A stretch of 47,815 nucleotides of DNA from Lentisphaerota bacterium. GTDB lineage: Bacteria; Verrucomicrobiota; Lentisphaeria; Victivallales; Victivallaceae. Location: the NCBI GenBank assembly GCA_015061745.1, contig SUWB01000023.1, forward strand, positions 1 to 47,815, written 5' to 3'. The translations under genes were made by a program, and so were the position numbers. The notes under the pieces are model-generated. The model did no database searches. It worked only from the letters and a program-made list of their open reading frames with translations, and was not told the origin of the DNA. Shown piece by piece: positions 2,011-44,470 of the stretch (positions are counted from its first letter, which is position 1; every line of letters starts with the position of its first letter).

Positions 2011-2256
2011 ATGAAAAAAATTTCGAAAAAGTCCTGGATGAAAATTTTTCTTATATTAGGGCTGCATCTGTGCCTTGTTGGACTGATTCTTCATCTCTAC
2101 TGTACCCCTGATACAGTGTTTCTGAAAGAATGCGCGGAAAGTATAAGTTCGTTTTTCAGTAACTGTTGGGAATATGTTGTGAGAACTTGGAATAAGATTC
2201 CCACCCCGGGAGAGTTGTGGGATAAGTTCATTGACATATTGTGGCCATTTTCTTGA
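2011..2256 (+). CDS. Small membrane protein, possible anchor for the VirD4-like ATPase
   Basis: An 81-aa protein with a basic N-terminus (MKKISKKSWMK) followed by one hydrophobic helix at about residues 12-30 (IFLILGLHLCLVGLILHLY), then a Cys/Trp-containing polar tail. The basic start and single helix suggest an inner-membrane protein with its N-terminus inside. It lies 8 bases before the VirD4-like gene, which lacks the N-terminal membrane helices normal for that family. I infer that it could supply the anchor in trans. I do not recognise a named family. No strong ribosome-binding site is visible. Confidence 0.6.
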   Translation: MKKISKKSWMKIFLILGLHLCLVGLILHLYCTPDTVFLKECAESISSFFSNCWEYVVRTWNKIPTPGELWDKFIDILWPFS

Positions 2257-2264
2257 GGTGAATT

Positions 2265-3977
2265 ATGGGTGATATCAAGACAACTGACAGCTACGGCAGC
2301 GCACGTTGGGCTAATCCTGAGGATTTAGCAGATGAAGGCATCTTGCATTTTTCGCAATCAGAATATCAGAATCAACCGCCTTCGAATCTTCACAGAAGTG
2401 CCAGGGCACAGTATGTGAAGAATTCTGCCATTGCCCGGTCATTCTTGTTGGGCCGGCTGGGGGATCCGGCTGTGCTTACCAGAGGAATCCGTGAAGGATA
2501 CGAGCAGGTGACTCAGGGAATGTTTGAAGGCCTGAAGAGCCTCTTTGTCGGAGGAAGTCGCAAAAGCAACGGTCCCGCCGAGGGGAAGTATATCGGCTGG
2601 GCCGGCGATGGACACATATTGACTGTGGCTCCCACACGCTCAGGCAAGGGGGTTGGGCTTGTGATTCCGAATCTTTTGCATTATCCGGGCTCTGTTCTTG
2701 TGATTGATCCCAAAGGGGAAAATTATGCCGTCACCCACAAATTCCGTGAAAAAGTCCTGGGGCAGAAGATCGTTTGCCTTGATCCCTTTCATATTGTCCT
2801 TGATAAGAATGAAGAGTCTGACAGTATCAATCCCTTTGACGGGATTGTGGATTACAGCCAGCCCAAGTCGACCTATATCCAGCAGAACCCGGAATTGCTT
2901 GATGAAGCCAATATGATCGCAGATTCCCTGATTATGCGCAGTCCCGAAGAAAAAGATCCTCACTGGAACGACAAGTGCCGCACTTTGCTGAAAGGATTGA
3001 TTTTGGCTGTTATTTGCGGATATGGGCGTCCGATTGATTCTTATAATCCCGCAAAAGGGCAGCGGCGGCATCTTTCTGAGGTGCGTTATCTGCTTACCCT
3101 CGGCGTTAAAGATTTTTCAACACTGCTTGTTGATATGGAATTTGATAAAAAGGCTGCTGGCGGGCTGTTGAGCAGAGCATCTCTTGAAATCCAGTCAATG
3201 GGAAAAGAGGAACAGAAAAACGTTATTTCTTTTGCTCTGAAGCATACGGAATTTCTGGACACGCCCCTCGTTGAACAGTGTTTGGGCGAGGAAGATTTGA
3301 GGTACCGGGGATCCTATAATCTGCGGGATTTGAAAACTCAGGGCGGTGTCAGTATTTATATGATTCTGCCGCCTCACTATCTTACACGCTATGTCCGCCT
3401 TTTCAGATTGTGGATCACAATGGCAATGGCGGCAATGACCAGAACGGCTCAAAAGCCGGCTGACGGCTGTCCTGTGCTCTTTATGCTGGATGAAATGGCT
3501 CAGCTCGGTACTATGGAAATGATGCGGCAGGCGGTCAGTCTGCTGGCCGGATACGGAATGTCTGTCTGGATGATCTGGCAGGACCTGTCTCAGCTGAAAG
3601 CCCTGTATGAACACGATTGGCCCAGTTTTATTGCCAATGCCAAGATACAGCAGTTTTTCGGTATCAATGACCACGAAACGGCTAAATACATATCTGAAAT
3701 GCTCGGTACGGCAACCATTGGCATTCAGACTTCCAGCGAAGGTTCCGGCAGAGGCAGTCAGGACTGGAAGCTGTTGTCAGGTAATCATTCCACCAATCAG
3801 TCTGTTTCCTATTCTGAAAAGGAGCGCAATCTGCTCTCGCCGGATGAGGTGAGACGCTTGAATCGTGAAGCTATGTTGATGTTTGTTCAAGGGATTCCCC
3901 CTATCCTGGCAGAGAGAATCTCTTACTTCAAAGATTCGCTGTTTAATTCGAAATATGAGAAAAATCCCTATATTTAA
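2265..3977 (+). CDS. VirD4/TraG-family coupling-protein ATPase
   Basis: This 570-aa protein has the hallmarks of type IV coupling proteins. They include the GSARWA motif near residue 11, Walker A APTRSGKG (about 122-129) followed by IPNLLHYPGSVLVIDPKGEN, and Walker B LFMLDEMAQLG (about 405-415). Coupling proteins are hexameric ATPases that pump DNA or protein into a type IV secretion channel. Here the usual two N-terminal membrane helices are absent, and no relaxase or channel gene lies nearby. The next partners are coiled-coil and Hsp70 genes, so a role outside conjugation is likely. The start is set by GAGGTGA about 7 bases upstream. Family assignment is firm; function in this operon is inference. 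Confidence 0.88.
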   Translation: MGDIKTTDSYGSARWANPEDLADEGILHFSQSEYQNQPPSNLHRSARAQYVKNSAIARSFLLGRLGDPAVLTRGIREGYEQVTQGMFEGLKSLFVGGSRKSNGPAEGKYIGWAGDGHILTVAPTRSGKGVGLVIPNLLHYPGSVLVIDPKGENYAVTHKFREKVLGQKIVCLDPFHIVLDKNEESDSINPFDGIVDYSQPKSTYIQQNPELLDEANMIADSLIMRSPEEKDPHWNDKCRTLLKGLILAVICGYGRPIDSYNPAKGQRRHLSEVRYLLTLGVKDFSTLLVDMEFDKKAAGGLLSRASLEIQSMGKEEQKNVISFALKHTEFLDTPLVEQCLGEEDLRYRGSYNLRDLKTQGGVSIYMILPPHYLTRYVRLFRLWITMAMAAMTRTAQKPADGCPVLFMLDEMAQLGTMEMMRQAVSLLAGYGMSVWMIWQDLSQLKALYEHDWPSFIANAKIQQFFGINDHETAKYISEMLGTATIGIQTSSEGSGRGSQDWKLLSGNHSTNQSVSYSEKERNLLSPDEVRRLNREAMLMFVQGIPPILAERISYFKDSLFNSKYEKNPYI

Positions 3978-3988
3978 GGAGAAAGACA

Positions 3989-4330
3989 ATGAGCGATTTG
4001 GAATTTGAACAAAGAAGAGTTGCAGATGCCTGGAGTCGGATAATTGAAGAGGAGATCAGGCATACCGAAAGCGGCTATAAAGTAAAAGAAGGCAATATAG
4101 AAGACTATCAGAAGAGAGAGGAAGAGTTAAGAGAGGAAGAACGATTCCTTGAAGGAAGATACAAGGAACTCCGGTGTCAGGAAGTTACCGGAATGAGTGC
4201 AGACCAGTTCTATCATCAAACCGTTGAGGATATGACTAAACGTGATATGCAGGCCATAGAGGACGCCAAAGCAGAAAAGATCGCTGCATTGGAAAAAGAA
4301 AATCAAGCAGAGGATTCACTTCAACTTTGA
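3989..4330 (+). CDS. Charged coiled-coil protein
   Basis: A 113-aa protein that is very rich in Glu, Lys and Arg (RIIEEEIRHTESGYKVKEGN and following). The pattern predicts almost continuous alpha-helix or coiled coil, with no signal peptide or membrane segment. AAGGAGAAAG just before the ATG is a strong ribosome-binding site. The gene lies 11 bases after the VirD4-like gene and is clearly in the same operon. No family is recognised. I infer a structural or adaptor role in the complex. Confidence 0.65.
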   Translation: MSDLEFEQRRVADAWSRIIEEEIRHTESGYKVKEGNIEDYQKREEELREEERFLEGRYKELRCQEVTGMSADQFYHQTVEDMTKRDMQAIEDAKAEKIAALEKENQAEDSLQL

Positions 4331-4373
4331 AAAACGAGAACTAAAGAATTAATAACTTGGGAGATGTCGATTT

Positions 4374-4880
4374 ATGTCAAAAGAATCAGTGGAAAGAGCA
4401 GAGGAAAATCTGCAGCGATATCAGGAAGCGCGGGAGAAAAAGGAACAGGAGCTGGACGATCATATGGATTTCAAGAACGGCCAGCCGCGGACACCAGCAG
4501 AAATAGATGCTCATATCGCCAAACAGGACCAGCTTGAAGCTGAACTTGATAAAGCCAGGCAGGAAGAGAAAGAAGCTCAGGAGATACTTGATAAAGAACG
4601 AGCTCAGCAAGCTGAAGTAGAGTCTGTACAGGAACGGAATACCCAGGAAGAGTTGGGTAATGGCGGATATTCTCAGGAAGAGATAGATGAAATGCAGGCC
4701 AAACGGGAGGCGGACCAACTCCGGCAACAGGAAGAAGAAAAGGTCGAAGCCCGTAAAAATGACGACTCCTGGAAAACGGATGAAATGAGGCAATTTGAGG
4801 AGGAACGTCAGAGAAGAATTGAGGAAATGAGCAACGAAAGACAATCTGACAAAAGCAACGACAAATCAAACTCTTTATGA
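4374..4880 (+). CDS. Charged coiled-coil protein
   Basis: A 168-aa, Glu/Gln/Lys/Arg-rich protein (heptad-like stretches such as LEAELDKARQEEKEAQEILD) expected to be a long coiled coil, ending in a polar SDKSNDKSNSL tail. It is cytoplasmic, with no membrane segment. It differs in sequence from the preceding coiled-coil gene but has the same composition. It sits between the VirD4-like ATPase and the GrpE-like gene. No family is recognised, and an adaptor or scaffold role is only an inference from composition. Confidence 0.62.
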   Translation: MSKESVERAEENLQRYQEAREKKEQELDDHMDFKNGQPRTPAEIDAHIAKQDQLEAELDKARQEEKEAQEILDKERAQQAEVESVQERNTQEELGNGGYSQEEIDEMQAKREADQLRQQEEEKVEARKNDDSWKTDEMRQFEEERQRRIEEMSNERQSDKSNDKSNSL

Positions 4881-4893
4881 TAAGGAATTAACT

Positions 4894-5874
4894 ATGAATT
4901 ACGACGAAAAAAAAGAGGTGCTTTCTGAAAGTGCAGAAGAAGTTGGAACTGTCGCTGAAGATTCCAGCCAGACAACAGAAACGGTAACAGAGGGCACTGG
5001 AGTGACTGCCCCCGCAGAAGAAGTGACTGCCCCCGCAGAAGAAGCGACTGCCCCCGCAGAAGAAGTGACTGCCCCCGCAGAAGAAGCGACTGCCCCCGCA
5101 GAAGAAGCGACTGCCCCCGCAGAAGAAGCGACTGCCCCCGCAGAAGAAGCGACTGCCCCCGCAGAAGAAGCGACTGCCCCCGCAGAAGAAGCTGCCCCGG
5201 GGGTGCCCCTTGTGCAGATGCAGGAGTTGGTGGAATCTGCCACACAGCAGATATTGACTGCGTTTACAGAACTTCGTGACTCTTTTGACGGCAAGCTGCG
5301 CTATGATGCCAAGAAAGATGAAATCATTGACCGTCAGAACAGAGAACTTTCTCAGTTCAAATCCGGTCTCATCGAAAAAGTCACAATGCAGATCATCAAC
5401 GATCTGATCGGAGAAATCGATGCTGCACAGAAATTGGCAAGATTTTACGAAAATGCCGAATTTAATGAAGTCAATTTTAAGAAACTGCACAACGTTGTCT
5501 GCGATATACCTGATTCTCTCTGTGATATCCTGGAGAAATATGGTGTGCTTGCCTATTCTTCTGCAGAAGGTAAGAGTTTCGATCCCAAACGCCAGCGGGC
5601 TCTCAAAACAACTGAAACCGGAGATGCCTCTAAGGATAAAATCGTGCGTGAATTGCTCCGTCTGGGCTTTGAACAGGAATTTGATTCTCCCAATGGCCAG
5701 GGCGTTTCGGTAAAGGTCTTGCGTCCCGAAATGGTGGACGTTTATGTCTTCAATCCGGCACTGGCAGCCTCCGCCGAAGCCCCCGCCGAAGCCCCCGCTG
5801 AAGCCCCCGCTGAAGCCCCCGCTGAAGCCCCCGCCGAAGCCCCTGCCGAAGCTACAGAGAGCAATGCTGACTGA
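4894..5874 (+). CDS. GrpE-like nucleotide exchange factor with Ala-Pro-Glu repeats
   Basis: 326 aa. Residues 38-100 are nine TAPAEE(A/V) repeats and the C-terminus holds about six APAE repeats. Between them is a helical segment (about 108-170), then EKYGV, EGKSFDPKRQRAL and VLRPEMVDVYV (about 217-290). These match the layout of GrpE: long helix, 'G-E-x-F-D-P-x-x-H-x-A', then 'R-V-L-R-P-A-x-V-x-V' in the beta domain. GrpE proteins release ADP from Hsp70. Its position directly ahead of four Hsp70 genes fits a dedicated exchange factor. The His of the usual FDPxxHEA motif is Gln here. The GrpE assignment comes from motif reading and should be tested by profile search. Confidence 0.68.
   Translation: MNYDEKKEVLSESAEEVGTVAEDSSQTTETVTEGTGVTAPAEEVTAPAEEATAPAEEVTAPAEEATAPAEEATAPAEEATAPAEEATAPAEEATAPAEEAAPGVPLVQMQELVESATQQILTAFTELRDSFDGKLRYDAKKDEIIDRQNRELSQFKSGLIEKVTMQIINDLIGEIDAAQKLARFYENAEFNEVNFKKLHNVVCDIPDSLCDILEKYGVLAYSSAEGKSFDPKRQRALKTTETGDASKDKIVRELLRLGFEQEFDSPNGQGVSVKVLRPEMVDVYVFNPALAASAEAPAEAPAEAPAEAPAEAPAEAPAEATESNAD
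5005..5193 (+). repeat. Nine tandem 21-bp units in the GrpE-like gene
   Basis: The unit ACTGCCCCCGCAGAAGAAGC(G) is repeated in frame, encoding TAPAEEA/V. Copies are almost identical at the nucleotide level, which points to recent expansion and easy length change. The coded segment is an acidic, proline-rich, flexible linker. Confidence 0.85.
5773..5850 (+). repeat. 12-bp tandem repeats at the 3' end of the GrpE-like gene
   Basis: GCCCCCGCTGAA-type units encode APAE about six times, just before the C-terminus ATESNAD. They are separate from the 21-bp array but similar in composition. Confidence 0.8.
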
Positions 5875-5920
5875 GAAATAAATATATTATACCAAATAAC
5901 AATTTAAGGAATTATAAACT

Positions 5921-7555
5921 ATGGCTGACACAGCAGAAAAAAAGTACGTATATGGTATTGACCTTGGAACAACCTATTCGGCTATTTCATTTTTCAATGA
6001 GAATGGTGAACCTGAAATCATTACCAACTCTGAAAATGAACGGACCACTCCTTCAGTGGTGTTTTTTGAGGAACCCGGCGCAGATGGCGTACCCAACATT
6101 GTGGTGGGTAAAGTCGCAAAGAGCAGTGGTGAAACGGCCCCTGATCGTGTGATTTCTTTTATCAAGCAGCAGATGGGAACCGATTGGACCAGTGAAATAG
6201 ACGGAATCCAGCTGACTCCGGAAAAGGTTTCAGCCTATATTCTGAGACGTCTGGTGGAGGATGCAAAGAAATGCGGAAATCACGATGTGCACGATGTGGT
6301 CATCACCTGCCCTGCCTACTTTGGTGAACTTGAACGCCAGGCAACAAAAATTGCCGGTGAGATCGCCGGACTGGAGGTGCTGCAGATTGTTGATGAACCT
6401 GTGGCCGCAGCTATCCATTACGGGCTTAATAAAGAATCCGGAGAAACCAAAACTGCGATCGTGTATGACTTGGGCGGCGGTACGTTTGACGTAACTGTTG
6501 TTTCTATCTCCACTAAAGATATCACGGTCGTTTGTTCTGACGGCGACCATAAACTCGGCGGCAAGGATTGGGACCAGCGTATTGTTGAATATTGCGCAAG
6601 CCGTCTGGCTGAAGCCTGCGGTACCGATATGGACACTGTGTTAAATGACAGTGAAACATCTTATGATTTGCAGATCAAAGCCGAAGTTATGAAGCAGGCT
6701 TTGACTCAGCGTGATGTTGCAATAGCAAAAATCGCTTATGAGGGAACCAGCGAGAAAATCGAATTGACCCGCGAAGCTTTTGATGAAATGACCCGGGACC
6801 TGCTTGAAAGAACTGTCGAGTTCACTCAGAAAATGATCGATTTGGCCGCAACCAAAGGCATTACCAGGATCAACGACTTTTTGCTGGTCGGCGGTTCCAC
6901 CCGTATGAGACAGGTTATGGAAATCGTCAAAGAGAAATTTGCCTCACAGGTCGATAATGAACCGAAGATTTTTGAAGTTGACGAAGCCGTTGCCAAAGGT
7001 GCTGCAACTTTTGGATATTATGAATTCCAAGGAAACAACGGAGGAGGAAACAACGGAGGAGGAAACAACGGAGGAGGAAACAACGGAGAAGGAAACGAAG
7101 GCGGATACACTCTCCCTGGCCCCGACATCCACACTGTTGCTTCCCGCAGCTATGGTATTCGCGTGTTGAATAAAGAGAAAGTTCCTGTTGTCTATAATAT
7201 GATCCACAAGCAGGATCAGGTGCCTGTTTCTTATGAACGGGAATTTCCTGTTTCTGTTGCCAACGCAGAAAAATTGCCCTTGGCCGTATTTTCCAACAAC
7301 TCTATGGAGGATATATTCTCTCTCGAGGAATCAGAAAGTGTCGGCGATGCTGTAATGGAACTGCCGCCGGGACTGCCTCAGGGGGCACCGATCAGGATCA
7401 AGTTCACATTGACTAAAGAAGGTGTGTTGAGTCTTGATGCAGTTGATGTCACTCACAATACCCCTGTGCACGCTACATTTGAAGCCAAGGGTGGTCTCAG
7501 TCAAGAACAAATCCAGAAAGCAAGACAAGAAACTGCTGATATCATTCTGGGGTAA
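5921..7555 (+). CDS. Hsp70 paralogue 1 (NBD plus substrate-binding beta domain)
   Basis: 544 aa. The actin-like ATPase domain shows GIDLGTTYS (phosphate 1), [22 protein letters not shown] (phosphate 2) and LLVGGSTRM (adenosine), ending near residue 365. A Gly/Asn-rich linker (GNNGGG repeats, about 370-395) joins a beta-rich substrate-binding-like domain containing MELPPGLPQGAPIRIKFTLT. The alpha-helical lid and EEVD-like tail of DnaK are missing, and it is about 90 residues shorter than the DnaK encoded at 44471-46375. AAGGAA precedes the ATG. It is close in sequence to the next gene, so a tandem duplication is likely. ATPase motifs look intact; the client is unknown. Confidence 0.9.
   Translation: MADTAEKKYVYGIDLGTTYSAISFFNENGEPEIITNSENERTTPSVVFFEEPGADGVPNIVVGKVAKSSGETAPDRVISFIKQQMGTDWTSEIDGIQLTPEKVSAYILRRLVEDAKKCGNHDVHDVVITCPAYFGELERQATKIAGEIAGLEVLQIVDEPVAAAIHYGLNKESGETKTAIVYDLGGGTFDVTVVSISTKDITVVCSDGDHKLGGKDWDQRIVEYCASRLAEACGTDMDTVLNDSETSYDLQIKAEVMKQALTQRDVAIAKIAYEGTSEKIELTREAFDEMTRDLLERTVEFTQKMIDLAATKGITRINDFLLVGGSTRMRQVMEIVKEKFASQVDNEPKIFEVDEAVAKGAATFGYYEFQGNNGGGNNGGGNNGGGNNGEGNEGGYTLPGPDIHTVASRSYGIRVLNKEKVPVVYNMIHKQDQVPVSYEREFPVSVANAEKLPLAVFSNNSMEDIFSLEESESVGDAVMELPPGLPQGAPIRIKFTLTKEGVLSLDAVDVTHNTPVHATFEAKGGLSQEQIQKARQETADIILG
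7031..7104 (+). repeat. 15-bp repeats coding a Gly/Asn linker in Hsp70 paralogue 1
   Basis: About four copies of a GGAAACAACGGAGGA-type unit encode GNNGG repeats at the junction of the ATPase and substrate-binding domains, replacing the usual conserved DnaK interdomain linker (DVLLLD). Confidence 0.8.
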
Positions 7556-7568
7556 CCTGAAAAAGGAG

Positions 7569-7618
7569 TTCCTTCCCGATTTTTCGGGAAGGAAATCCAC
7601 AATGTGTGGTTCTTTTTT
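7569..7618 (+). terminator. Possible intra-operon attenuator between Hsp70 paralogues 1 and 2
   Basis: TTCCTTCCCG/CGGGAAGGAA (7569-7594) is a strong hairpin. It is followed by a weak CCACA/TGTGG hairpin (7597-7609) and TTCTTTTTTT. A hairpin plus T run inside the operon could give partial termination and so lower expression of downstream genes. Confidence 0.45.
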
Positions 7619-7640
7619 TATACAGGAAAACTGGGACACT

Positions 7641-8798
7641 ATGGAAAACAAACGCGTATATGGTATTGACCTTGGAACAACCTATTCCGTTATTTCATAT
7701 GTCAATGATAATGGTGAACCCGAGATTATCACCAACTCAGACAATGATCGGCTCACTCCCTCAGTGGTATTCTTTGATGACCCCGATGAAAACGGGGCCC
7801 CCTGCATTGTGGTCGGTCGCGTTGCCAAAGAGAGTGGTGTGATTTCTCCCGGACGCACTTTTGCTTTTATCAAGCAGCAGATGGGAACCGATTGGACCTG
7901 TGAAATAGACGGAATCCAGCTGAATCCGCAAAAAATTTCATCCTATATCCTGAAACGTTTGGTGGATGATGCAAAGAGATGCTGGGATCTCGATGTTGAA
8001 GATGTGGTTATTACCTGCCCTGCCTGCTTTGACACAGTTCAGCGCCAGGCAATTATTGATGCCGGTAAGATTGCCGGACTGAACGTGCTGCAGCTTCTCG
8101 ATGAATCTGTGGCAGCTGCTATGCATTATGGGCTCAATAAAGAGGTCGGAGAAGCAAAAACTGCAATCGTCTATGACTTGGGCGGCGGTACGTTTGACGT
8201 GAGTGTTGTTTCTATTTCAGATGGTGTCACAGTTATTTGTTCTGACGGTGACCATCAACTCGGCGGCAGGGATTGGGACCAGCGTATTGTTGAATATTGT
8301 GCAAGCCGTCTGGCTGAAGCCTGCGGCACCGATATGGATACTGTGTTAAAAGACAGTGAAATATCTTATGATTTGCAGCTCAAAGCCGAAGTTATGAAGC
8401 AGATTTTGTCTTCGCGTGATGTTGCAAGAGCAAAAATCGCTTATGACGAAACCAGCGAGAAAATCGAATTGACCCGCAAAGCTTTTGATGAAATGACCCG
8501 GGACCTGCTTGAAAGAACTGCTGTGTGTACTCAGAAAATGATCGATTTTGCAGCTTCCAAAGGCATCACCAGGATCAATGACTTTTTGCTGGTCGGCGGT
8601 TCTACCCGTATGCCTCAGGTTATGGAGATGATCAAAGAAAAATTTGCTTCACAGGTCGATAATGAACCGTGGATGCTTGAGGTTGATGAAGCCGTTGCCA
8701 AAGGAGCTGCAATTGCGGGATTAATTGTAAATAAGAGAATAGATTATATCAGCAGCGAGTTTGAAGCAGCAAAAGTTGATGGATTGACAGTTGAGTAA
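7641..8798 (+). CDS. Hsp70 paralogue 2, nucleotide-binding domain only
   Basis: 385 aa from the ATG giving [16 protein letters not shown]. That start aligns with paralogue 1, while upstream in-frame ATGs overlap the attenuator hairpins. All the ATPase motifs are present ([27 protein letters not shown]), but the protein stops at GAAIAGLIVNKRIDYISSEF, just after the ATPase domain. The substrate-binding domain seen in paralogue 1 is gone. The high similarity to paralogue 1 over the ATPase domain suggests duplication followed by loss of the 3' part. It could act as a regulatory partner or ATPase decoy. A degenerating copy is the alternative, although the frame is fully open. Confidence 0.85.
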   Translation: MENKRVYGIDLGTTYSVISYVNDNGEPEIITNSDNDRLTPSVVFFDDPDENGAPCIVVGRVAKESGVISPGRTFAFIKQQMGTDWTCEIDGIQLNPQKISSYILKRLVDDAKRCWDLDVEDVVITCPACFDTVQRQAIIDAGKIAGLNVLQLLDESVAAAMHYGLNKEVGEAKTAIVYDLGGGTFDVSVVSISDGVTVICSDGDHQLGGRDWDQRIVEYCASRLAEACGTDMDTVLKDSEISYDLQLKAEVMKQILSSRDVARAKIAYDETSEKIELTRKAFDEMTRDLLERTAVCTQKMIDFAASKGITRINDFLLVGGSTRMPQVMEMIKEKFASQVDNEPWMLEVDEAVAKGAAIAGLIVNKRIDYISSEFEAAKVDGLTVE

Positions 8799-8886
8799 AT
8801 TTCTGCTTTCACTATAATGCTCCCGGCAAGGGGGAGCGGGGAAAAGCAATAAAATAATAAGAGTTTAATTTTTAGGGATAGATTTT

Positions 8887-10590: not shown

Positions 10591-10626
10591 TCGTCAAAAA
10601 AAACAACATTCAGGAGAATCGGTTTT

Positions 10627-12786: not shown

Positions 12787-12827
12787 GGCTGCGGCAGAGC
12801 AGTTACTGTTAAAACAAGGATTATATT

Positions 12828-15578
12828 ATGGCAGAAAAAGACAATTATTATCTCCTGCTTGAACTTCCTCTTGATCCTCCGGTCAGGGATAAGGCAAAGT
12901 TGGAGGCCGCAATAAATGCCAAGCAGGCAGAATGGAACAAAAAACTCAACTCCCCTTTAGGAGTGAAATTCAGCAGTTATGTTGCAAAATTACCGGCAAT
13001 CAAAGAAGCCCTTTTAAGAAGCGATATCCAGAGGGATGAAGTTATTGCAGAAGCTGAAAAGATCATTATGGCTGAAATCGCAGAAACGCTGGATTTTATA
13101 GCTTCCTCCGGATTTGTAACCGAGGCTCAGTTAAAGGATTTGTGTAAAAGGTATCCCCAGTATTCTGAAGCAAGCCTCAAAAAGATGATAAAAGTTCCTG
13201 TCGTTTCATCAGGCACATTCAAGGCTCCAGAAAAACCTGCTGATCCACCGTTTAAGCCTGTCGATAGTGTTCTTATGGGCAAGATCCAAAGTCTTCTGGG
13301 GGGGCTCTCCAAAAGCGATATTTACGATTTTTTAGGATGTCCGCGTACAACATCTTCCAAGGAAATATGCGAACTCGCAAGTCAGGCGATCGCCAAAGTC
13401 CAAGTGGGAAGAAAAACTCCAGAAGCATCTGCGACTCAGGAATTGGCCGGTTTGGTCAAGAGTATTTTCGCTGAGAAAGATGGTAAAGCCGCTTACGATT
13501 ATGCCCATAGAAGGGGGGCTCTTACAGCATTGCAGGACAAATTCGCCTTGCTTTGTAAAACTTCTGAAAAAAGCAACAGCATTACCTGGGAAGGATACCA
13601 GTCCTCTATTGCTCTGTGCCGCAGTGTGGGAATGAGTGCTGAAGAAGCTGAGTATGCCGTCTATGATTATTACTGCAATAAGAAAAAATGCCCTCCCCCT
13701 GTTTCTCCTGAAAATGCTTCTGCTCATTCAGATGTTTTTTATTGCAAAAGCTGCTTGGCTCCCAATCCGAAAGGCGCAAAGATCTGTCAAAAATGCGGTC
13801 TGCCCTTTAAGGTGCAGTGTCCCCAATGCGGAAAAACAGTTGGTTTTGACAGTGCCCATTGTGACGGATGTTCTTTCCCTGTGGGCGATATGCCCCTGGC
13901 ATTGCGCTATCTCGAAGAAAGTAAACTGCTGGCCGTGCAAGACAACTGGACAGGAGCAGAGAAAGCTCTGAAGACCGCTTTGATTTACTGGCCGGGGAAT
14001 AAAGAGTGCCTTGAGCTGCAAAAGCAGATCGCCGCCAGGGAAGCAAAAATTCACCTTGAAAATCTTACCCTGTCTGGTGTTATCAAAGCGTCAGTGACCA
14101 CTGACCGTGTTTCTTTGAGTTGGCCCGCCGCCTCAGCACGCGATCCCGGAAAAAAAACCGATTTGAATCAGGTTTCATATCAGCTGATGAGAAAGCGGGG
14201 AGGGAGTCCCTCAAATCCTCAGGACGGAGAGATCCTTACTGAAACCCGGCTGTTGAATTATGATGATACGACCTGTGTCCCCGGAGTTATTTACGGGTAT
14301 GCAGTATTCCCTGTTTACGACGGTTGTGCAAGCAGCAGCTGTGTTGTGTCTCCCCGGGTGATGACAGTTGCAGATGTTTTTAACCTGAAAATCGTCAGTG
14401 ACGACAAAGAAATACGTTTGCAGTGGGAAAATCCGCAGAATTGTTCCGGAGTCAAATGCGTCCGCAAACTCAACTCCGAACCCCGGGATATGCGCGACGG
14501 GGAAGAAATCCCCCTCAAAAGCGGAGCGCAGGGTCTGGTCGATACGGGACTCAAAAATAAGCAGACCTACGGTTACAGAATCTGTGCTGTATACACCGAT
14601 CCCGACGGCAAACCCTGCTTGGGCGTCGGTATTCCCTGTTCCGGAACGCCGGCAGAACGGCCGGAAATGTTGAACTCGTTGCGTTATGTTTTGAATGAAA
14701 GTAATGCAGAACTTTCCTGGACTCCTCTGAAAGATTGTACCGTCAGGATCTTGGTTTCTCAATCTGCTATTGCCGAAACAGGTGCTTTTCTGCCGGAAAC
14801 AGATCCGGTATTTGCACGGAGCGAAGCCGTCCGGGATGTCGATCAGGTTCGCGGCGTCGGCAATTGGCGTCTTCCCGGGGCAGGTATTTATTATCTGACT
14901 CCTGTCGTGTGCAAAGGCGGCAATGCTTTGGTCGGCCAGGCGATCCCAGTCGTACCCTGTGTTTCCAATGTCAAGGTCCGCAGACAAACCGGGAACATCG
15001 AAGTGAGCTGGGATTGGCCCCGGGGGTGCGGAGAAGTACGTCTGGTGTGGCGGAATGATAAATTCCCCGAATCCCCCTTTGACGGAGCCGCTTCTCAAGC
15101 AGTGATTTCCAAGAGCGCGTACGACAGTAATAAGGCTCATATCATCCGTCAGGTCGGAGATAGAGCATTTTATTTCAATATTTATACCACTCTGAAAGTT
15201 GAGGGAAAAGAGATTTGTTCTGCTCCACAGACGGGTGTATCTCTCGGTCAGCAGGGACTTTCTCAGCTGACCTATTCAATTGTCAGAAAAAAGAAGTTTC
15301 TCATCTGGGGAAATGATGGTATAGAATTGAAAATCAATGTTACCCGCGGTTCTGTTCCTGAACTGATTTTGCTCCGGCAGGCACGCCGTCAGCCGTTGAG
15401 TAAAATGGATGGCAGCGTCTGTTTGCGTATTCCGGCCAGCAACGGAAAATCAGCTGTTGTGCCGCTGCCGCCCGGGACGGTTCAGCCGGGAATGTATGTT
15501 AAACTCTTTCTGGCTGATGATGCTGATGAAAGCAAGATCAAAATGATTCATCCTGCCCCTGGAGATATGAAAATCTGA
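12828..15578 (+). CDS. Large J-like, double zinc-ribbon, Fn3-like protein
   Basis: 916 aa. The start DNYYLLLELPLD and a second segment near residue 165 (DIYDFLGCPRTTSSKEICEL) resemble the opening helix of J-domains, but neither has the HPD motif needed to stimulate Hsp70. Two zinc ribbons follow at about 304-352 (CKSC..CQKC and CPQC..CDGC), then a TPR-like helical stretch (about 355-405). The rest (about 415-850) holds several beta-rich segments of Fn3 type (VSLSWPAAS, ELSWTPLKD, IEVSWDWPRG). The position after four Hsp70 genes suggests a co-chaperone or scaffold. The J-like and Fn3 calls are by eye and need fold prediction. Confidence 0.7.
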   Translation: MAEKDNYYLLLELPLDPPVRDKAKLEAAINAKQAEWNKKLNSPLGVKFSSYVAKLPAIKEALLRSDIQRDEVIAEAEKIIMAEIAETLDFIASSGFVTEAQLKDLCKRYPQYSEASLKKMIKVPVVSSGTFKAPEKPADPPFKPVDSVLMGKIQSLLGGLSKSDIYDFLGCPRTTSSKEICELASQAIAKVQVGRKTPEASATQELAGLVKSIFAEKDGKAAYDYAHRRGALTALQDKFALLCKTSEKSNSITWEGYQSSIALCRSVGMSAEEAEYAVYDYYCNKKKCPPPVSPENASAHSDVFYCKSCLAPNPKGAKICQKCGLPFKVQCPQCGKTVGFDSAHCDGCSFPVGDMPLALRYLEESKLLAVQDNWTGAEKALKTALIYWPGNKECLELQKQIAAREAKIHLENLTLSGVIKASVTTDRVSLSWPAASARDPGKKTDLNQVSYQLMRKRGGSPSNPQDGEILTETRLLNYDDTTCVPGVIYGYAVFPVYDGCASSSCVVSPRVMTVADVFNLKIVSDDKEIRLQWENPQNCSGVKCVRKLNSEPRDMRDGEEIPLKSGAQGLVDTGLKNKQTYGYRICAVYTDPDGKPCLGVGIPCSGTPAERPEMLNSLRYVLNESNAELSWTPLKDCTVRILVSQSAIAETGAFLPETDPVFARSEAVRDVDQVRGVGNWRLPGAGIYYLTPVVCKGGNALVGQAIPVVPCVSNVKVRRQTGNIEVSWDWPRGCGEVRLVWRNDKFPESPFDGAASQAVISKSAYDSNKAHIIRQVGDRAFYFNIYTTLKVEGKEICSAPQTGVSLGQQGLSQLTYSIVRKKKFLIWGNDGIELKINVTRGSVPELILLRQARRQPLSKMDGSVCLRIPASNGKSAVVPLPPGTVQPGMYVKLFLADDADESKIKMIHPAPGDMKI

Positions 15579-15593
15579 TAAGGAGATTATAAG

Positions 15594-16730
15594 ATGGCTA
15601 AAAGAACTGTTATGTGTCCGTTGTGTTTTGATAAAATAAAGCTTTCAGACATTCTTTACAGATGCGGAAATCCCGCCTGCCTGGGAATGGCGGATATTGC
15701 ACGTTCGGCGGATGAGATCCATTGGCTGGAAAAAATTGGACTGAAATTACCTCCCAGAAGTGTTATTCATACAAAGTGCGGTAATCTGGCAACCAAGCGG
15801 ATATGTCCTAAATGTCAGCAGGAACTTCCTGTCAATGTTGACAAACTTTCCAATTACAGCATCGCTATAATCGGTGCCAAAGATGCCGGAAAGAGCCATT
15901 ATGTTGCTATGCTGATCCATTGGATCAAGAAGGCCGGAGCTGACTTCGGGTGGAATTTGACGGAACTTTCCGACAGAACCATTGAACGCTACCATCAAGA
16001 GTTTTTCAAGCCGCTTTTTGAACATCACGTTCCAATTGATACGACACAGGCCGTTCGGGGAGGTACTGCTGAACCGCTGATTTATTCGCTCAATAAAGGC
16101 TCCAAAAGCATTATGCTGGTGTTTTTTGACGCCGCCGGTGAAAACTTGAACTCAGCCGACGATATGTGGTATATCGAAAGGTATATCTGCAATGCCTCAG
16201 GGATCATCTGTCTGCTTGATCCTTTGCAGCTGACTCTGGTGCGGCGCGAAATCGGCAAAAAATACGGCAACGATGTTTTGCCGGATCAGCACAGTGATAC
16301 GGCGAGTATCATCAACCGGGTTGAAAATATTATCCGGAAACACACTGATGTTGGTATCCGAAAGCTCCCGATTCCTTTGGCTGTGGCTTTTTCAAAAATG
16401 GACTTTGTTGAGGCCGCAGGCTGCAATGCTGAAGCTATCGCGGACCGGCTTTCTGAAGAAACACTGCACCGCGGCGTATTTAACGAAACTGAATTTACTG
16501 AAATAGACGGTCTTATGCGTTCCTGGGTGGAGGAAGTGGACATTTCTGCCGGTATTATTCCGCAGAGTCAGCAGTTCAAAAAGACCGGTTTCTTTGGATT
16601 CAGTGCCCTGGGGTGCAATCCCAGAAGTTCCAATGGAAATCTGGAGCACGACCCAAAACCGAATCGTGTTGAAGATCCGTTTTTATGGATTCTCAAACAG
16701 TGCGGGGTGATTAAGTCAATTAAGGGGTAA
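15594..16730 (+). CDS. Zinc-ribbon GTPase (double-GTPase type)
   Basis: 378 aa. An N-terminal cysteine-rich region (CPLC, CGNPAC, CG, CPKC within residues 8-74) is followed by a P-loop GTPase domain with Walker A GAKDAGKS (94-101), switch II FFDAAGEN (178-183) and a specificity loop SKMD (267-270) in place of NKxD. The layout matches the zinc-ribbon plus TRAFAC-like GTPases described in bacterial double-GTPase gene clusters. It sits 6 bases before the GAP1-like gene and one gene from a second, related GTPase. No membrane segment is present. I infer a regulatory switch in the complex. Confidence 0.75.
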   Translation: MAKRTVMCPLCFDKIKLSDILYRCGNPACLGMADIARSADEIHWLEKIGLKLPPRSVIHTKCGNLATKRICPKCQQELPVNVDKLSNYSIAIIGAKDAGKSHYVAMLIHWIKKAGADFGWNLTELSDRTIERYHQEFFKPLFEHHVPIDTTQAVRGGTAEPLIYSLNKGSKSIMLVFFDAAGENLNSADDMWYIERYICNASGIICLLDPLQLTLVRREIGKKYGNDVLPDQHSDTASIINRVENIIRKHTDVGIRKLPIPLAVAFSKMDFVEAAGCNAEAIADRLSEETLHRGVFNETEFTEIDGLMRSWVEEVDISAGIIPQSQQFKKTGFFGFSALGCNPRSSNGNLEHDPKPNRVEDPFLWILKQCGVIKSIKG

Positions 16731-16735
16731 AAGAG

Positions 16736-19255
16736 ATGATTTATCAATGGGTTTACACTTATTCCTGCTGGAGCCGGAAGAAAAGAGAGACTGACCCCCC
16801 TGCCCGGGGATTCTGTACTTTTTCGTGGACAGAAGGACTTGATATTGCCGAAATCGACGAACTCGAACGCCGTTGCAGTTCTTACAAGCTGCCGTTGGAT
16901 TGTAATTTTCCGGCGCGGCCGACACGAGAGGAAATAGACGAGCTTTTTCCGGTCGGATTTTTCTCTTTTACCCTGGCTTCAGGGAAACGGGCTCTGGTAC
17001 GTACCTGCTATGTGGGTGAATGTTTTTATGACAAGCGTTGGGGAGCTATTATGTCCCACGGGCTGATCCTGGAAAAAGGACAGGAATGGCCGTTATATCC
17101 TATGGAATACTTTGATTCTCCGGTTTTCTGGAGAGAGCTTCCTGCAGCCATACGGGAAGAAGCTCTTGCTTGCAAAGAACAAAAAGATCCGCCGCCGCCG
17201 CCCTATCTGCCGGCACTGGAACTGGAGGATCTTTGTTCACAAAAAACATACACGCCGGAAAAAGTTGCTGCCAGAATGGCTGAGTCGCCTGAATTTGCTG
17301 CCAAACTTTCAATATTTTTTAACGAGTATATGGCAGGAAAAGGTGAAAACGGTCTGCTTTGCATCAGTGCGCCTGTGGCGGAGGTGCCGTGGCTTTTTGC
17401 CGGTGTGACGATGATGTTGCCGCGTAAGTTTTCCAGCAATTTGAGTTTCTCGACTTTTCTCAGCGACAAGATGCCTGGGCCGAATGAAAGCGGCCGCTGG
17501 TACAATATTGCTGCAACGGAAAGCCGTTTCAGCCGGCTCAATCTGAAGTATGCCGACAATGCTGAAAAAGGTATCTGGGATGTCCGGGCACTCTGGCAGT
17601 TCAAACAGCCTTTTGAGGAATTTTTAGAGAACTTCTCCTCTCTCCAGATTTCTGTATTGCCTGATGCGGTCACTTTGTACAAATTCCTCCGGGAGCAGGG
17701 ACCTTTGTCTGATGCTGAATGGCCGGGAATAATGCAGCTTCTTTCCGGCTGTACCGATCTGGCTGTATGCAAGGAGTTTATCACTGCTCTGCTTGCCGGT
17801 TCCACCCTGCCGGGACAGTTTACAGAAAGGCGTTTTGAGGAAATCTTTTCTCTCGTTGCTGCTGATGAACTGGGGCGTCCGTTATGTTACGAACTCTTTT
17901 TGAAGTTCCGCCGGCAGTATCAGGGGGATTTGTTTGCCGCATTTACCGAAATGGCAGAAAAATACCCCCGGGAAATCACCGTTTTGTGGCTTGAAGAATA
18001 TGCTTTGACGGAATTGACGACCATAGGGCTGCAGCTTACATTCAGGTCCCTGAGCCTGAATGGAGTTGCCGGCGAACTTGGCACATCAGCCTGGGATGAG
18101 CTTTTTGATGCTGGAAAGACTGCCGGAGTGAATTGGCAGACGATTGTTTCTGCAGCTCCGACGTATTTTTCAGACTGTTTTACTGCTATTCTCAATAAAT
18201 GTCCGGATTCGGGGGTTCTGGAAAATGTTTTGAACAGTGCGGCATCCAATATGGCACAGCTGCAAAGTTTTGTGGAAAAGATATTTGCTTTCGGGAACCA
18301 CGCTCTTGCAAAAGATATGCTCCGGAAATATTTGAGCCGTAACTGCAGCAGCAGTTTAATGAGTTTCAGACAGATTATGGTCCTTGCAGAAAAACTTGAT
18401 CCGTCTTTTGCCAAAAGTTGTTTCAGTGATTTTTTCTTTGATATCGAAGGCCGTATTGCAGTTATAAGCAGTGATGATCTCTCCTGGCTTTATGCTCATC
18501 TTGAGGATGTCCCTGAAAAAACTGCCGGAATTTATTTGCGGACCGTTGATGCCAAGATTCCTTTCCCTGAATACCGGGATCCTGCATATCTTGCGCTTTT
18601 GGAGCGGATTCTTGCTGATGATGCTGCCGCTGAACTCCGCTTCTGGCACACAGGTTTTGCTGTCTGGTTTCTGAAAACGATTGACCGTCCCTTGAGGGGC
18701 GTCAAGGTTCAGGAGCTGATGCGGGAATTGAGTGCGTTCAAAGAGGTTTACCGTGAACTTACACCGCAGACACAGATGTCAGTATGTGAATTTCTTTTGT
18801 CGGAAATCATTGAAAACAGCTGTGCCGGGGATGAAATGAGTGCTGTCAATCTGCACAGAGAGATCCTGCTTTTCTTTGGCGCAGCCTCTGAACCGGTGCG
18901 GGAATGGCTGGTCAGTGAATATGTGGATCTTATCAGCGTCAATGTAAAGAATCAAACTATTTTATACTCTGATTTCAGATTCATCGCCGGTGTCAAATGT
19001 GCACTGGGAGAATTGGGAGACGAGGAACTCAGTCAGATGATGCGCGAAGAACTTGCGCACCGTGTTTTTAAGAAATTCAGTAAAAAAGGATTAAAAAAGG
19101 CTGCTCAAACTCTTGGTATTTTTTCAATGAGAGAAACAAGATATTGGGATGAAGTATGCAGGGAGGTTGCAAGGAGCAATTCATTTATCGTTAAATGTGC
19201 AAACGTAGTTAATTTTATTTTCAATACAATAAAGAAAGTGAAGATTTATGTCTAA
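16736..19255 (+). CDS. GTPase-associated protein (GAP1-like), large helical
   Basis: 839 aa. The first 150 residues (YQWVYTYSCWSRKKRETDPP, later GFCTFSWTEGLDIAEIDELE, and ...YVGECFYDKRWGAIMSHGLIL) resemble the N-terminal domain of GTPase-associated protein 1, known from bacterial double-GTPase clusters. The remainder is leucine-rich and helical, without known catalytic motifs or membrane segments. It lies between the two GTPase genes and overlaps the second by 8 bases, which points to a complex with both. The GAP1 assignment rests on the N-terminal pattern and the neighbours. 'GAP1' here means GTPase-associated, not a proven GTPase activator. Confidence 0.65.
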   Translation: MIYQWVYTYSCWSRKKRETDPPARGFCTFSWTEGLDIAEIDELERRCSSYKLPLDCNFPARPTREEIDELFPVGFFSFTLASGKRALVRTCYVGECFYDKRWGAIMSHGLILEKGQEWPLYPMEYFDSPVFWRELPAAIREEALACKEQKDPPPPPYLPALELEDLCSQKTYTPEKVAARMAESPEFAAKLSIFFNEYMAGKGENGLLCISAPVAEVPWLFAGVTMMLPRKFSSNLSFSTFLSDKMPGPNESGRWYNIAATESRFSRLNLKYADNAEKGIWDVRALWQFKQPFEEFLENFSSLQISVLPDAVTLYKFLREQGPLSDAEWPGIMQLLSGCTDLAVCKEFITALLAGSTLPGQFTERRFEEIFSLVAADELGRPLCYELFLKFRRQYQGDLFAAFTEMAEKYPREITVLWLEEYALTELTTIGLQLTFRSLSLNGVAGELGTSAWDELFDAGKTAGVNWQTIVSAAPTYFSDCFTAILNKCPDSGVLENVLNSAASNMAQLQSFVEKIFAFGNHALAKDMLRKYLSRNCSSSLMSFRQIMVLAEKLDPSFAKSCFSDFFFDIEGRIAVISSDDLSWLYAHLEDVPEKTAGIYLRTVDAKIPFPEYRDPAYLALLERILADDAAAELRFWHTGFAVWFLKTIDRPLRGVKVQELMRELSAFKEVYRELTPQTQMSVCEFLLSEIIENSCAGDEMSAVNLHREILLFFGAASEPVREWLVSEYVDLISVNVKNQTILYSDFRFIAGVKCALGELGDEELSQMMREELAHRVFKKFSKKGLKKAAQTLGIFSMRETRYWDEVCREVARSNSFIVKCANVVNFIFNTIKKVKIYV

Positions 19256-20792
19256 TGATAATGATGGCGCAGAGGCATTGGGCTCCTGTTTAGGGGTTGT
19301 TCTGGCGATTGCTGTAATTCTCTACATAATATATGTGATCGTTTGCTGCATATTGGCTGTGGCTGGAGTGGTGATGTTCTGCGGAGCTGCTTTGGGATTG
19401 GCCTGGGGGGCAGTGCGGTCAACATATAACTTCGTTCTGGCGGCCAAGGAAAATCTTTTTTATCGCGATCCTGCCAGACGGATAGAGGACAACTGTTATG
19501 TGAGTTTCTTTCATTTGCGCGGAGACGGATTCCGCAACATCGGCAAGGTGTGGGCGAACGCATTTAGCCGCAACTGGTGGGATGTTTCCGGAGAGCTTCC
19601 CCGAGGGAAAGCACTCTTTTTTGCGCTTCCGTTCAGACTGGTTCACATTGCAGTAGTGCTGGCAAGTACAGTTATTTATCTGCCGATATTGTCGATCATC
19701 TTTACAGGGATATATCTTGTTATCTGGTTTTTGTACGTTTCATTGGCGTGTGAGATGCGCTTTATGGAATGGTGCTTTAACAAGATTCACGGACTTTTCA
19801 ACATCTGTCAGCATTGTCATCAGCGTGTTGATCTGCCGGTCTACCGTTGTCCCGGCTGCGGGGTTGAATATTCCCATTTGGTTCCCAGTGTGAAATTCGG
19901 ACCTTTTTTCAGAAAGTGCCGCTGCGGGGAATATCTGCCTACCAGTCGTTTTTTTGAGCGCAACGCTTTGACGGCGATCTGCCCCAATAACAACTGTCAT
20001 CAGGATTTGAAATCCTCTGATGTTGTGCCCGTATCAATTGCTATGCTTGGCGGTGGTTCTGTGGGTAAGAGTCATTTTATGATGGACGCAGTTTATCTTC
20101 TGCAGGAAAATGTTTTGCCTGAAATGAAGCGTTCGTGTCGAGTTGCCGAAGAAGATCGGGCGGTGGTTGAAAACTTGTGCCGTTATTACGAAGCGGGTAT
20201 CCGTCCCGATACCACCCGCGACGGGATGATCGAAGCGATCTGCCTGGAAACGAAAGCCAAGACCTGGGCATTTCCTCAGCGTTTGTATTTGTATGACCCC
20301 CCGGGCGAATCATTCAAGGAGTCAGACAAGATTTCCTCTCACCGTTATTACCGGAATATGCAGGGTGCAGTGCTCATTATAGACCCGTTCACCTTGACTG
20401 CTGTTTTGTCTGATTACAGACAGCATGGGATCCAGCATACAATGCTTGCTGTTGGAGCGATGGCTCCCGAAGAAAGCATCAGCCGGTGGCTGATCAGTAT
20501 GGAACGTGACTTTCCGGGGATTGCCAAACGTTCCTGTCTTGCGGTCTGTATCAACAAGACCGATGAAAGTTCATTTCAAAAGATCACCGGTCTTACAGCC
20601 GGGGACAGGGGCAAAAAATGCCGTCAGTTCCTGGAACGGTATGAATGTATCAACCTTGTGAACAAAGTTGAAATGAACTTCCATAAGGTTGAATACTTTG
20701 CTGTGTCAGCCACCGGCAGCGGAGGAGACGGCAAAGCCTTCCAGCCTGAAGGGATCAGCGATGTTCTCAAATGGCTGCTGAGCAATATATGA
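19248..20792 (+). CDS. Membrane-anchored zinc-ribbon GTPase
   Basis: 514 aa. Hydrophobic segments lie at about 14-56 and 125-168, with small polar parts between. A cysteine-rich zinc-ribbon region follows (CQHC, CPGC, CRC, CPNNNC; residues 187-250). The GTPase domain has Walker A GGGSVGKS (268-275), switch II DPPGESF, and NKTD in CINKTDES. It is related in layout to the cytosolic GTPase at 15594-16730, but with membrane helices and a canonical NKxD. The start ATG overlaps the stop of the GAP1-like gene (ATGTCTAA). It may recruit the Hsp70/GAP1 complex to the membrane. Confidence 0.78.
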   Translation: MSNDNDGAEALGSCLGVVLAIAVILYIIYVIVCCILAVAGVVMFCGAALGLAWGAVRSTYNFVLAAKENLFYRDPARRIEDNCYVSFFHLRGDGFRNIGKVWANAFSRNWWDVSGELPRGKALFFALPFRLVHIAVVLASTVIYLPILSIIFTGIYLVIWFLYVSLACEMRFMEWCFNKIHGLFNICQHCHQRVDLPVYRCPGCGVEYSHLVPSVKFGPFFRKCRCGEYLPTSRFFERNALTAICPNNNCHQDLKSSDVVPVSIAMLGGGSVGKSHFMMDAVYLLQENVLPEMKRSCRVAEEDRAVVENLCRYYEAGIRPDTTRDGMIEAICLETKAKTWAFPQRLYLYDPPGESFKESDKISSHRYYRNMQGAVLIIDPFTLTAVLSDYRQHGIQHTMLAVGAMAPEESISRWLISMERDFPGIAKRSCLAVCINKTDESSFQKITGLTAGDRGKKCRQFLERYECINLVNKVEMNFHKVEYFAVSATGSGGDGKAFQPEGISDVLKWLLSNI

Positions 20793-21220
20793 TGAACGGC
20801 GGGACAATAAATATTGCGGTATTTGCTGTGGGTCTCGGGGGCTATTTTTTGATAGCCCCTGTGGGAATCGTTCTTTTGTACCATTGGCTGACGGCGAAAC
20901 ATAATATGTATTATGCTGTTTTGAGCCTGATCGGTATTGGGGCGATTTCCTGGGGAGTTACGGCAGCGTTGGTTTTGGGAGTAAATCATATTGCTCCCGG
21001 CCTGTTGAGGCCTGAAATTATCCGTATGGGCTTATGGTGCGGCTGGAGCTGTTGTTTTGCCACATCGGTTCCGGGGCTGCTGCTTGCGGGAGCTGCCGGA
21101 TTGCTGACCCGGAAAAAATCTGTCCGGGTCAGGATCAGCTCAGAATGTATTGCTTCTTCACTGCCTTACATCATTTTATTGAGTGTATGGATCCCCTTTC
21201 TTGCTGCGGCAAAAGCCTGA
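20771..21220 (+). CDS. Small multi-pass membrane protein
   Basis: 149 aa with about four hydrophobic helices (VFAVGLGGYFLIAPVGIVLL; YYAVLSLIGIGAISWGVTAALVLG; CFATSVPGLLLAGAAGLL; LPYIILLSVWIPFLAAAKA). It overlaps the end of the membrane GTPase gene by 22 bases. An in-frame ATG at 20789 would give an ATGA-type overlap and a protein 6 residues shorter, which is also plausible. It is the last gene of the operon. No family is recognised, and a membrane partner of the GTPase is inferred from the overlap. Confidence 0.65.
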   Translation: MAAEQYMMNGGTINIAVFAVGLGGYFLIAPVGIVLLYHWLTAKHNMYYAVLSLIGIGAISWGVTAALVLGVNHIAPGLLRPEIIRMGLWCGWSCCFATSVPGLLLAGAAGLLTRKKSVRVRISSECIASSLPYIILLSVWIPFLAAAKA

Positions 21221-21311: not shown

Positions 21312-21425
21312 CTACATAGAATGGGTTCGGTATTGTACCGGACTCATTCCTTTTAATTTTAAAGATACTCTCTCGTTGTTAAAATAGCAAATGTATTCTT
21401 CAAGTTTCTGCTTAATAATTCAATT
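21312..21425 (-). pseudogene. IS3-family transposase OrfB, C-terminal remnant
   Basis: Read on the minus strand, about 35 codons give KQKLEEYICYFNNERVSLKL followed by KGMSPVQYRTHSM and a stop. This is the highly conserved end of IS3-family integrase-type transposases (YNNERxxxKLKGMSPxxYR). An in-frame TGA at 21420-21422 breaks the frame, and upstream sequence no longer matches, so only the tail survives. It lies between the system operon and the rfb genes. Confidence 0.75.
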
Positions 21426-42403: not shown

Positions 42404-44068
<1,665 letters not shown>

Positions 44069-44076
44069 TCAAGAGT

Positions 44077-44367: not shown

Positions 44368-44422
44368 TTTTTATTCTCCTTAATTATTTGTTATGGGACT
44401 TTTCCCGTTAAACTGTTTTGAA

Positions 44423-44456
44423 CTTGAGTCCGCAGAGTTTTCTATGCGGACTCAAG
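44423..44456 (-). other. Hairpin between dnaK and groES
   Basis: CTTGAGTCCGCA and TGCGGACTCAAG form a perfect 12-bp stem. There is no strong T run afterwards on the minus strand, so it may be a partial terminator or an RNA processing/stability element that sets the dnaK to groESL ratio. Confidence 0.5.
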
Positions 44457-44470
44457 GATCGTTTTGTTTC

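Follow-up and report, generated by a model that had tools for sequence, protein, structure and literature searches.

GAP1-N2 systems are predicted conflict systems, and about 14% of their neighbourhoods carry Hsp70 together with GrpE, according to those sections of Kaur, Burroughs, Iyer and Aravind (2020, PMC7159879) that deal with this Hsp70 theme; as described there, some members encode an Hsp70 without the peptide-binding domain, and the fibronectin type III (FNIII) protein of the theme is typically fused to DnaJ or TPR. Here we describe a locus of this kind in a 47,815-nucleotide stretch (hereafter, the window; contig SUWB01000023.1, positions 1 to 47,815, forward strand) of the 3.1-Mb draft genome of a Lentisphaerota bacterium (assembly GCA_015061745.1). 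At 2011-21220, 14 consecutive open reading frames (ORFs), all on the + strand, join a chaperone/GTPase/GAP1 core, which has already been described, to a module centred on a VirD4/TraG-type coupling ATPase, which is the new part. We read the locus as belonging to the Hsp70-GrpE branch of the GAP1-N2/DO-GTPase systems, of which it would be a VirD4-equipped variant, with a predicted conflict (immune) function and with VirD4 as an exchangeable output motor, and assign this reading a probability of about one half. The 14 genes are as follows.

2011-2256, + strand: g01, 81-amino acid membrane protein directly 5' of VirD4 (hydropathy peak 2.36 over 19 residues)
2265-3977, + strand: g02, VirD4/TraG-type coupling ATPase, 570 amino acids (Pfam T4SS-DNA_transf PF02534, 1.2e-78; TraG-D_C PF12696, 5e-34)
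3989-4330, + strand: g03, 113-amino acid charged protein with a C-(E/Q)-E-x-T-G-(L/M)-S patch (sequence)
4374-4880, + strand: g04, 168-amino acid charged protein, coiled-coil-like as judged by eye (sequence)
4894-5874, + strand: g05, GrpE (PF01025, 1.9e-9)
5921-7555, + strand: g06, Hsp70 (a), 544 amino acids (PF00012, 1.3e-87)
7641-8798, + strand: g07, Hsp70 (b), 385 amino acids, nucleotide-binding domain alone (PF00012, 7.3e-86)
8887-10590, + strand: g08, Hsp70 (c), 567 amino acids (PF00012, 2.1e-96)
10627-12786, + strand: g09, Hsp70 (d) with a C-terminal vWA domain, DASGS motif (PF00012, 8.2e-116; VWA PF00092, 1.9e-20)
12828-15578, + strand: g10, J-like/double zinc ribbon/FNIII protein, 916 amino acids (PF12773, 5e-7)
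15594-16730, + strand: g11, zinc-ribbon DO-GTPase (a) (DO-GTPase2 PF19993, 1.1e-6)
16736-19255, + strand: g12, GAP1 with a GAP1-N2 domain (PF20013, 3.1e-14)
19248-20792, + strand: g13, membrane zinc-ribbon DO-GTPase (b) (PF19993, 1.4e-4; hydropathy peak 3.24)
20771-21220, + strand: g14, 149-amino acid membrane protein (hydropathy 2.21)

The domain calls of an earlier note, made from the letters of this DNA, were recovered with Pfam (VirD4/TraG, Hsp70 in four genes, vWA, double zinc ribbon, GrpE and GAP1-N2), and the membrane anchors it listed are present, by hydropathy, in g01, g13 and g14. Of its two zinc-ribbon GTPases, GTPase a exceeds the PF19993 cut-off (29.0 bits against 27; the Cys pairs were recognized by eye, and the gene adjoins GAP1), whereas the match of GTPase b is below that cut-off (22.0 bits), with the P-loop GGGSVGKS and the NKTD motif present in its sequence. 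In g12, GAP1-N2 scores 53.6 bits against a cut-off of 24, and the match to GAP1-M (0.0011) is below cut-off. With the Hsp70 theme, as the relevant sections of PMC7159879 present it, the window shares a zinc-ribbon DO-GTPase next to GAP1, GAP1-N2, Hsp70 and GrpE, as well as an Hsp70 without the peptide-binding domain, in agreement with the suggested link to predicted conflict systems; the theme's membrane-bound second DO-GTPase (below cut-off here) and its FNIII protein with a DnaJ-type region (weak matches here) have candidate counterparts. The window differs from the theme in adding the VirD4 module with its two charged partners and transmembrane (TM) peptide, and in having four Hsp70s, one with vWA, a domain that those sections do not mention for the Hsp70 theme. 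Neither VirD4 nor TraG occurs in the main text of that paper, and no publication linking VirD4 to GAP1-N2/DO-GTPase systems was found. Thus, the description of this combination as uncharacterized holds for the VirD4 link and fails for the core of GrpE, Hsp70, J/FNIII protein, DO-GTPase and GAP1-N2.

The g02 protein shares with VirD4/TraG coupling proteins the motor domain, the P-loop and the C-terminal TraG-D region; the P-loop and a DEMAQLG box are invariant across six aligned members of its clade, and a GSARWA motif, presumably a feature of VirD4/TraG proteins, lies near the N-terminus (ARWA in two distant rows). In a tree of 46 rows, the window and 16 other rows form a single clade (17 rows, support 99/99) that represents 15 distinct loci besides the window, L059 and L076 being counted once for their identical VirD4. 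All 17 rows lack the N-terminal TM peak (hydropathy at most 1.03) and all 17 keep the P-loop. The clade departs from conjugative coupling proteins in the absence of that peak as well as of VirB4 and of the MOB relaxase in the genomes searched (see below), and from VirD4/TraG coupling proteins in having genes for charged partners downstream.

In the genome collection, the VirD4 profile found 29 relatives, of which 11 reach at least 50% identity. Among 288 genomes of the phylum, there were eight matches, namely, the window, five at 63% identity and two at 36-38%; the five genomes are read as Akkermansia, given that the VirD4 of one is that of an A. muciniphila metagenome-assembled genome (MAG) and that all share a genus label. 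Going by VirD4, the rows closest to the window are one from the MAG of an unclassified bacterium and one from a Victivallales MAG. GrpE and/or Hsp70 were found in the fetched stretch of 12 of the 15 non-window clade loci, a count that includes L078, where GrpE is below the Pfam cut-off (21.5 bits) and the start of an Hsp70 lies at the contig end. Outside the clade, neither was found near VirD4 in the 18 distant loci covered by the same scan, in 10 viral loci or in two distant loci of the phylum, some of these stretches being 3-6 kb in length. The Hsp70-linked loci fall into three sub-lineages of the tree, i.e. the window trio, L078/L079 and Akkermansia. In L079, at 1119-2978, the VirD4 frame is interrupted; the genome concerned, G289, has three VirD4 loci, and one J/FNIII gene on its contig C756 contains an internal stop.

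A profile of the J/FNIII protein matched 12 of the 288 phylum genomes, over the full length in seven, namely, the six with a clade VirD4 and G217; the other five, which match in the zinc-ribbon or FNIII part only, are left out of the count. For the co-occurrence of the full-length J/FNIII protein with VirD4, the hypergeometric p is 9e-12, a value tempered by the fact that five of the six genomes belong to one genus and by the origin of the profile, which draws on rows from the window, G217 and Akkermansia; more distant versions may therefore escape it. Its empty answer against Planctomycetota (0/294) shows nothing. Among 55 GAP1-N2 regions from 48 other genomes of the phylum, several of them cut by contig ends, none contained VirD4, and only that of G217 contained GrpE/Hsp70.

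Tight packing, with short gaps or overlaps, and a shared strand had been taken as signs of a 13-gene operon. The packing and the ORF order were confirmed (spacing of 5-88 nucleotides, with an overlap at each of the final two junctions), and the operon-like unit stands, albeit with 14 ORFs rather than 13. The shared strand is true yet weak evidence and was rejected as support for an operon, given that every main ORF between 2011 and 42165 lies on the + strand; the case for an operon-like unit is made instead by the conservation of gene order in other genomes, which is better evidence than strand. In the MAG G288, the best matches for all 14 window genes are split over two contigs and keep the window order: the first part is on L069 and the remainder on C386 (L122, L123), and each contig breaks off at the first Hsp70, which on L069 is a frame that stops 41 nucleotides short of the contig end. 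A single G288 gene matches both Hsp70a and Hsp70b, and, compared to the window, G288 has a 512-amino acid zinc-ribbon gene before the J/FNIII gene and additional GTPase copies. In a Victivallales MAG (L070), nine genes, from the TM peptide to the Hsp70-vWA fusion, are in the window order; the ORF that follows, at the contig end, corresponds to the extra 512-amino acid zinc-ribbon gene of G288 (62% over 82 residues) and not to J/FNIII. Identity between the window and its relatives differs by component, at 77-79% for VirD4, 63-69% for the Hsp70s, 53% for J/FNIII, 47% for GAP1 and 31-49% for the small proteins. The outcome that the earlier note named as refuting its reading, genes that rarely occur together, was tested by this neighbourhood survey and did not materialize.

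Among the small genes, homologues of g01 occupy the same place in L069 and L070 (31-37% identity), those of g03 lie 3' of VirD4 in L069, L070 and L071, and those of g04 lie 3' of VirD4 in L069, L070 and Akkermansia; no match to g01 or g03 was found in Akkermansia. Possibly, g01 supplies the membrane anchor that VirD4 lacks. A homologue of g14 adjoins GTPase b in G288 (34% identity). Within the chaperone part, g07 starts at 7641, not at 7434, and covers only positions 2-376 of the 625 in the DnaK model; g09 has full-length homologues of equal length in G288 and L070, and the same Hsp70-vWA fusion is found by Pfam in G217. In g05, in-frame tandem repeats of the PAEEA type flank GrpE on both sides (5004-5192, 5766-5852), and the first Hsp70 has in-frame GGNN-type tandem repeats at 7030-7096; these repeats may vary in length from strain to strain.

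The slot 5' of GrpE differs between genomes. In G217 (L040), the gene order is a Sel1-like gene (below cut-off), a NACHT ATPase (PF05729, 5.2e-9), GrpE, Hsp70, Hsp70-vWA, J/FNIII, GTPase a, GAP1 and GTPase b with a PDZ domain; thus, the core order is the same as in the window, whereas NACHT and the Sel1-like gene stand in G217 where the window has the TM peptide, VirD4, g03 and g04. ATPases of the STAND/NACHT conflict class thereby fill a slot that in the window contains none of them. This single genome suggests exchange of the upstream ATPase slot between VirD4 and NACHT.

The Akkermansia version is smaller (about nine genes) and is ordered differently, with a membrane GTPase homologue, GrpE, two Hsp70 genes, J/FNIII, GTPase a, VirD4, a charged protein and a lipase-like protein, and without GAP1 in the locus; a kinase gene and a vWA gene are found in four of the five Akkermansia genomes of the phylum survey. 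Thus, the linkage of VirD4 with the core holds across two different gene orders. The membrane protein of this version is a DO-GTPase homologue (hhalign probability 97.9%, E = 3.5e-13), and its P-loop is lost in all three aligned rows; an AlphaFold model of this protein has a mean pLDDT of 63 and carries no weight in our argument. The five surveyed Akkermansia genomes also have no GAP1-N2 match, which would fit a role of GAP1 as partner of two active GTPases. A tyrosine recombinase adjoins the locus in all five of these genomes (by Pfam in one of them); it was not seen in L073-L075, whose stretches begin close to the operon. Few proteins from the Akkermansia flanks were scanned; a G021 protein among them is of the Mrr-helicase restriction type, with no background for comparison. 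Taken with the prediction in the sections of PMC7159879 cited above, the patchy spread, the recombinase beside the five Akkermansia copies and the NACHT alternative are the grounds on which we propose a conflict function.

The suggestion, made in the earlier note, that the locus might act in DNA transfer found no support in the form of conjugation. VirB4 was missing under PF03135 (0/6 genomes) and under TIGR00929 (0/14 over cut-off, with two 17-bit fragments below it), and the MOB relaxase PF03432, the one relaxase family searched, was missing as well (0/6); two of the genomes in this set are single contigs and others are drafts, and when the three models were applied to 14 control genomes, each scored over cut-off in one. 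It could be supposed that g02 derives from, or still belongs to, a conjugative or integrative element, as a leftover coupling protein of a type IV secretion system (T4SS) whose position next to a chaperone operon is fortuitous; its membership of the coupling-protein family and the tyrosine recombinase next to the Akkermansia copies would fit this. These relatives, however, form a clade of their own, linked to the core in three sub-lineages and with the P-loop kept, the linkage persists in Akkermansia in spite of the different gene order, and the MOB relaxase was absent from six genomes and VirB4 not over cut-off in 14; we therefore disfavour this explanation as very improbable. A plasmid origin was rejected because VirD4 identity stays below 60% throughout 357 plasmid records, and below 40% in the eight of them that were listed, and because GAP1 and J/FNIII found no plasmid match. 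A viral origin was rejected because VirD4 identity in viral contigs does not exceed 33%, apart from a single 45-residue piece (49%), and because GTPase a, used as a single-protein query, had no match there.

A different function would be that of a chaperone-fed secretion device, in which the Hsp70s hold an effector unfolded and VirD4 drives its export. The coupling proteins of the Dot/Icm and Cag systems drive effectors out of the cell in this manner, and Cag5, an effector-type coupling protein, is the sole match of the VirD4 profile among PDB chains at E 1e-5 (6e-27); the small charged partners could be adaptors. Given that VirB4 was not over cut-off in 14 genomes (PF03135, 0/6), that no channel gene was recognized in the window operon and that no substrate gene was recognized, such a device appears improbable. 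Somewhat less so, but still unlikely, is an envelope proteostasis machine, with no invader involved, in which membrane complexes would be assembled, mended or taken apart under stress by the Hsp70/GrpE/J-like proteins together with the GTPases, and in which VirD4 would act as a protein unfoldase or translocase. Several parts of the operon are membrane proteins; a lipase-like protein, with Pfam matches that are near the cut-off or below it, lies beside the Akkermansia locus, together with ORFs that by eye resemble lipoprotein genes; LemA and a Sel1/DnaJ-zinc protein lie downstream in G288, on the minus strand of C386 (L122 4084-12252), where there are several copies of the membrane DO-GTPase and a single ORF that combines Sel1 repeats with a zinc centre of the DnaJ type, followed by LemA; and DO-GTPases are mentioned alongside membrane stress in a passage of PMC11237479. 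However, presence in only 6 of 288 genomes, the NACHT gene of G217 and the recombinase flank in Akkermansia would be expected of conflict genes rather more than of housekeeping ones.

Several observations weigh against our reading of the locus as a VirD4-equipped conflict system. Three clade loci (L071, L072 and L077) have no Hsp70 nearby, and their genomes have no J/FNIII or GAP1-N2 match, although two of the contigs end within about 2 kb past VirD4; hence, VirD4 of this clade is not tied to the Hsp70 core. In two of these (L071 1518-9073, L072 4861-12319), lipoprotein-like and helical ORFs (by eye) and paired similar ORFs of secreted type precede a membrane protein and then VirD4; the L071 membrane protein, 5' of VirD4, is weakly similar to peptidase M50B (below cut-off), with a look-alike in L072 by eye, as proteostasis would have it, and VirD4 of the clade can thus serve another, envelope-linked system. 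For the J-like and FNIII regions of g10, profile comparison with PDB chains gave hits of low significance (E = 0.011 to DnaJ C12 and E = 0.0056 to fibronectin), Pfam gave no match to J or FNIII, and an HPD motif is absent from g10 and six homologues; both calls are weak. Three further rumen or gut Akkermansia MAGs carry GAP1-N2 on other contigs, beside another GTPase, which blurs the argument from GAP1 loss. No defence genes were recognized next to the window operon, where the downstream side begins with a sugar-nucleotide gene and the upstream side is the contig start, and GAP1 and J/FNIII had no match in plasmids. PADLOC, applied to 10 of the 14 window proteins, returned only weak matches, to mad8 and HerA; of these, the match of the g02 motor region to mad8 of the MADS anti-phage system scores 4.6e-7 and 27.6 bits, and the other nine proteins match no MADS model. 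In the literature, no experiment demonstrating defence by a GAP1-N2 system was found.

Two hairpins were located in or next to the operon.

7569-7594, + strand: stable hairpin in the gap after Hsp70a (fold of the gap compared to shuffles)
21319-21349, + strand: terminator-like hairpin with a T-rich tail, 3' of g14 (14-bp stem)

The gap after the first Hsp70 folds stably in three species with differing sequences (window 7556-7640, z = −4.66; L070 9965-10041, z = −5.38; L123 9341-9397, minus strand, z = −4.00), and the conserved hairpin is a possible attenuator, processing or mRNA stability element, suggestive of uneven expression of the GrpE-Hsp70a part compared to the rest; consequently, a single uniform transcript is not established. 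The stretch surrounding the terminator-like hairpin folds no better than shuffles (z = −0.70). Elsewhere in the window, a 29-bp unit with the core GGCGATATCTCC is repeated about 12 times in an array at 1413-1754, 5' of the operon and near the contig start; GroEL-like and DnaK-like genes, named from sequence, lie on the opposite strand, 21 kb from the operon (42404-46447, minus strand); and a 300-bp repeat with 94% identity (31026-31325 and 33008-33307) falls within two genes that we take to be pseudopilin-like, giving each of them two FTLIELLV motifs.

If the locus is indeed a conflict system, the membrane GTPase b and the zinc-ribbon GTPase a would form a switch regulated by GAP1, and the J/FNIII protein would be a variable sensor or scaffold that hands the target to the Hsp70s, which GrpE would recharge in a target-handling or assembly cycle. 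Upon target binding, the switch would release or assemble the output ATPase, in this case, a VirD4-type ring held at the membrane by the small partners in place of a TM domain of its own, which would act on the DNA or a protein substrate of the invader without a type IV secretion channel. The whole would be a membrane-associated, NTP-driven complex with a role in defence. More tentatively, and with considerable doubt, a ring motor of the conjugation type may have been captured, have lost its TM domain and have become the exchangeable output in a chaperone/GTPase immune switch. An Hsp70/J-like sensor would then recognize an invader at the membrane and fire the VirD4 ring, which would translocate the incoming DNA or unfold the invader's proteins with no secretion channel; elsewhere, NACHT fills the slot.

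In this locus, an orphan VirD4 motor is joined to chaperone/GTPase immune systems of a class so far predicted, and the ATPase slot of that class may be swappable, holding either VirD4 or NACHT. The Akkermansia version, with some nine genes, one GTPase without a P-loop and no GAP1 in the locus, offers a compact test case for the roles of GAP1 and of the motor. If the proposed reading is true, coupling proteins would work outside a T4SS.

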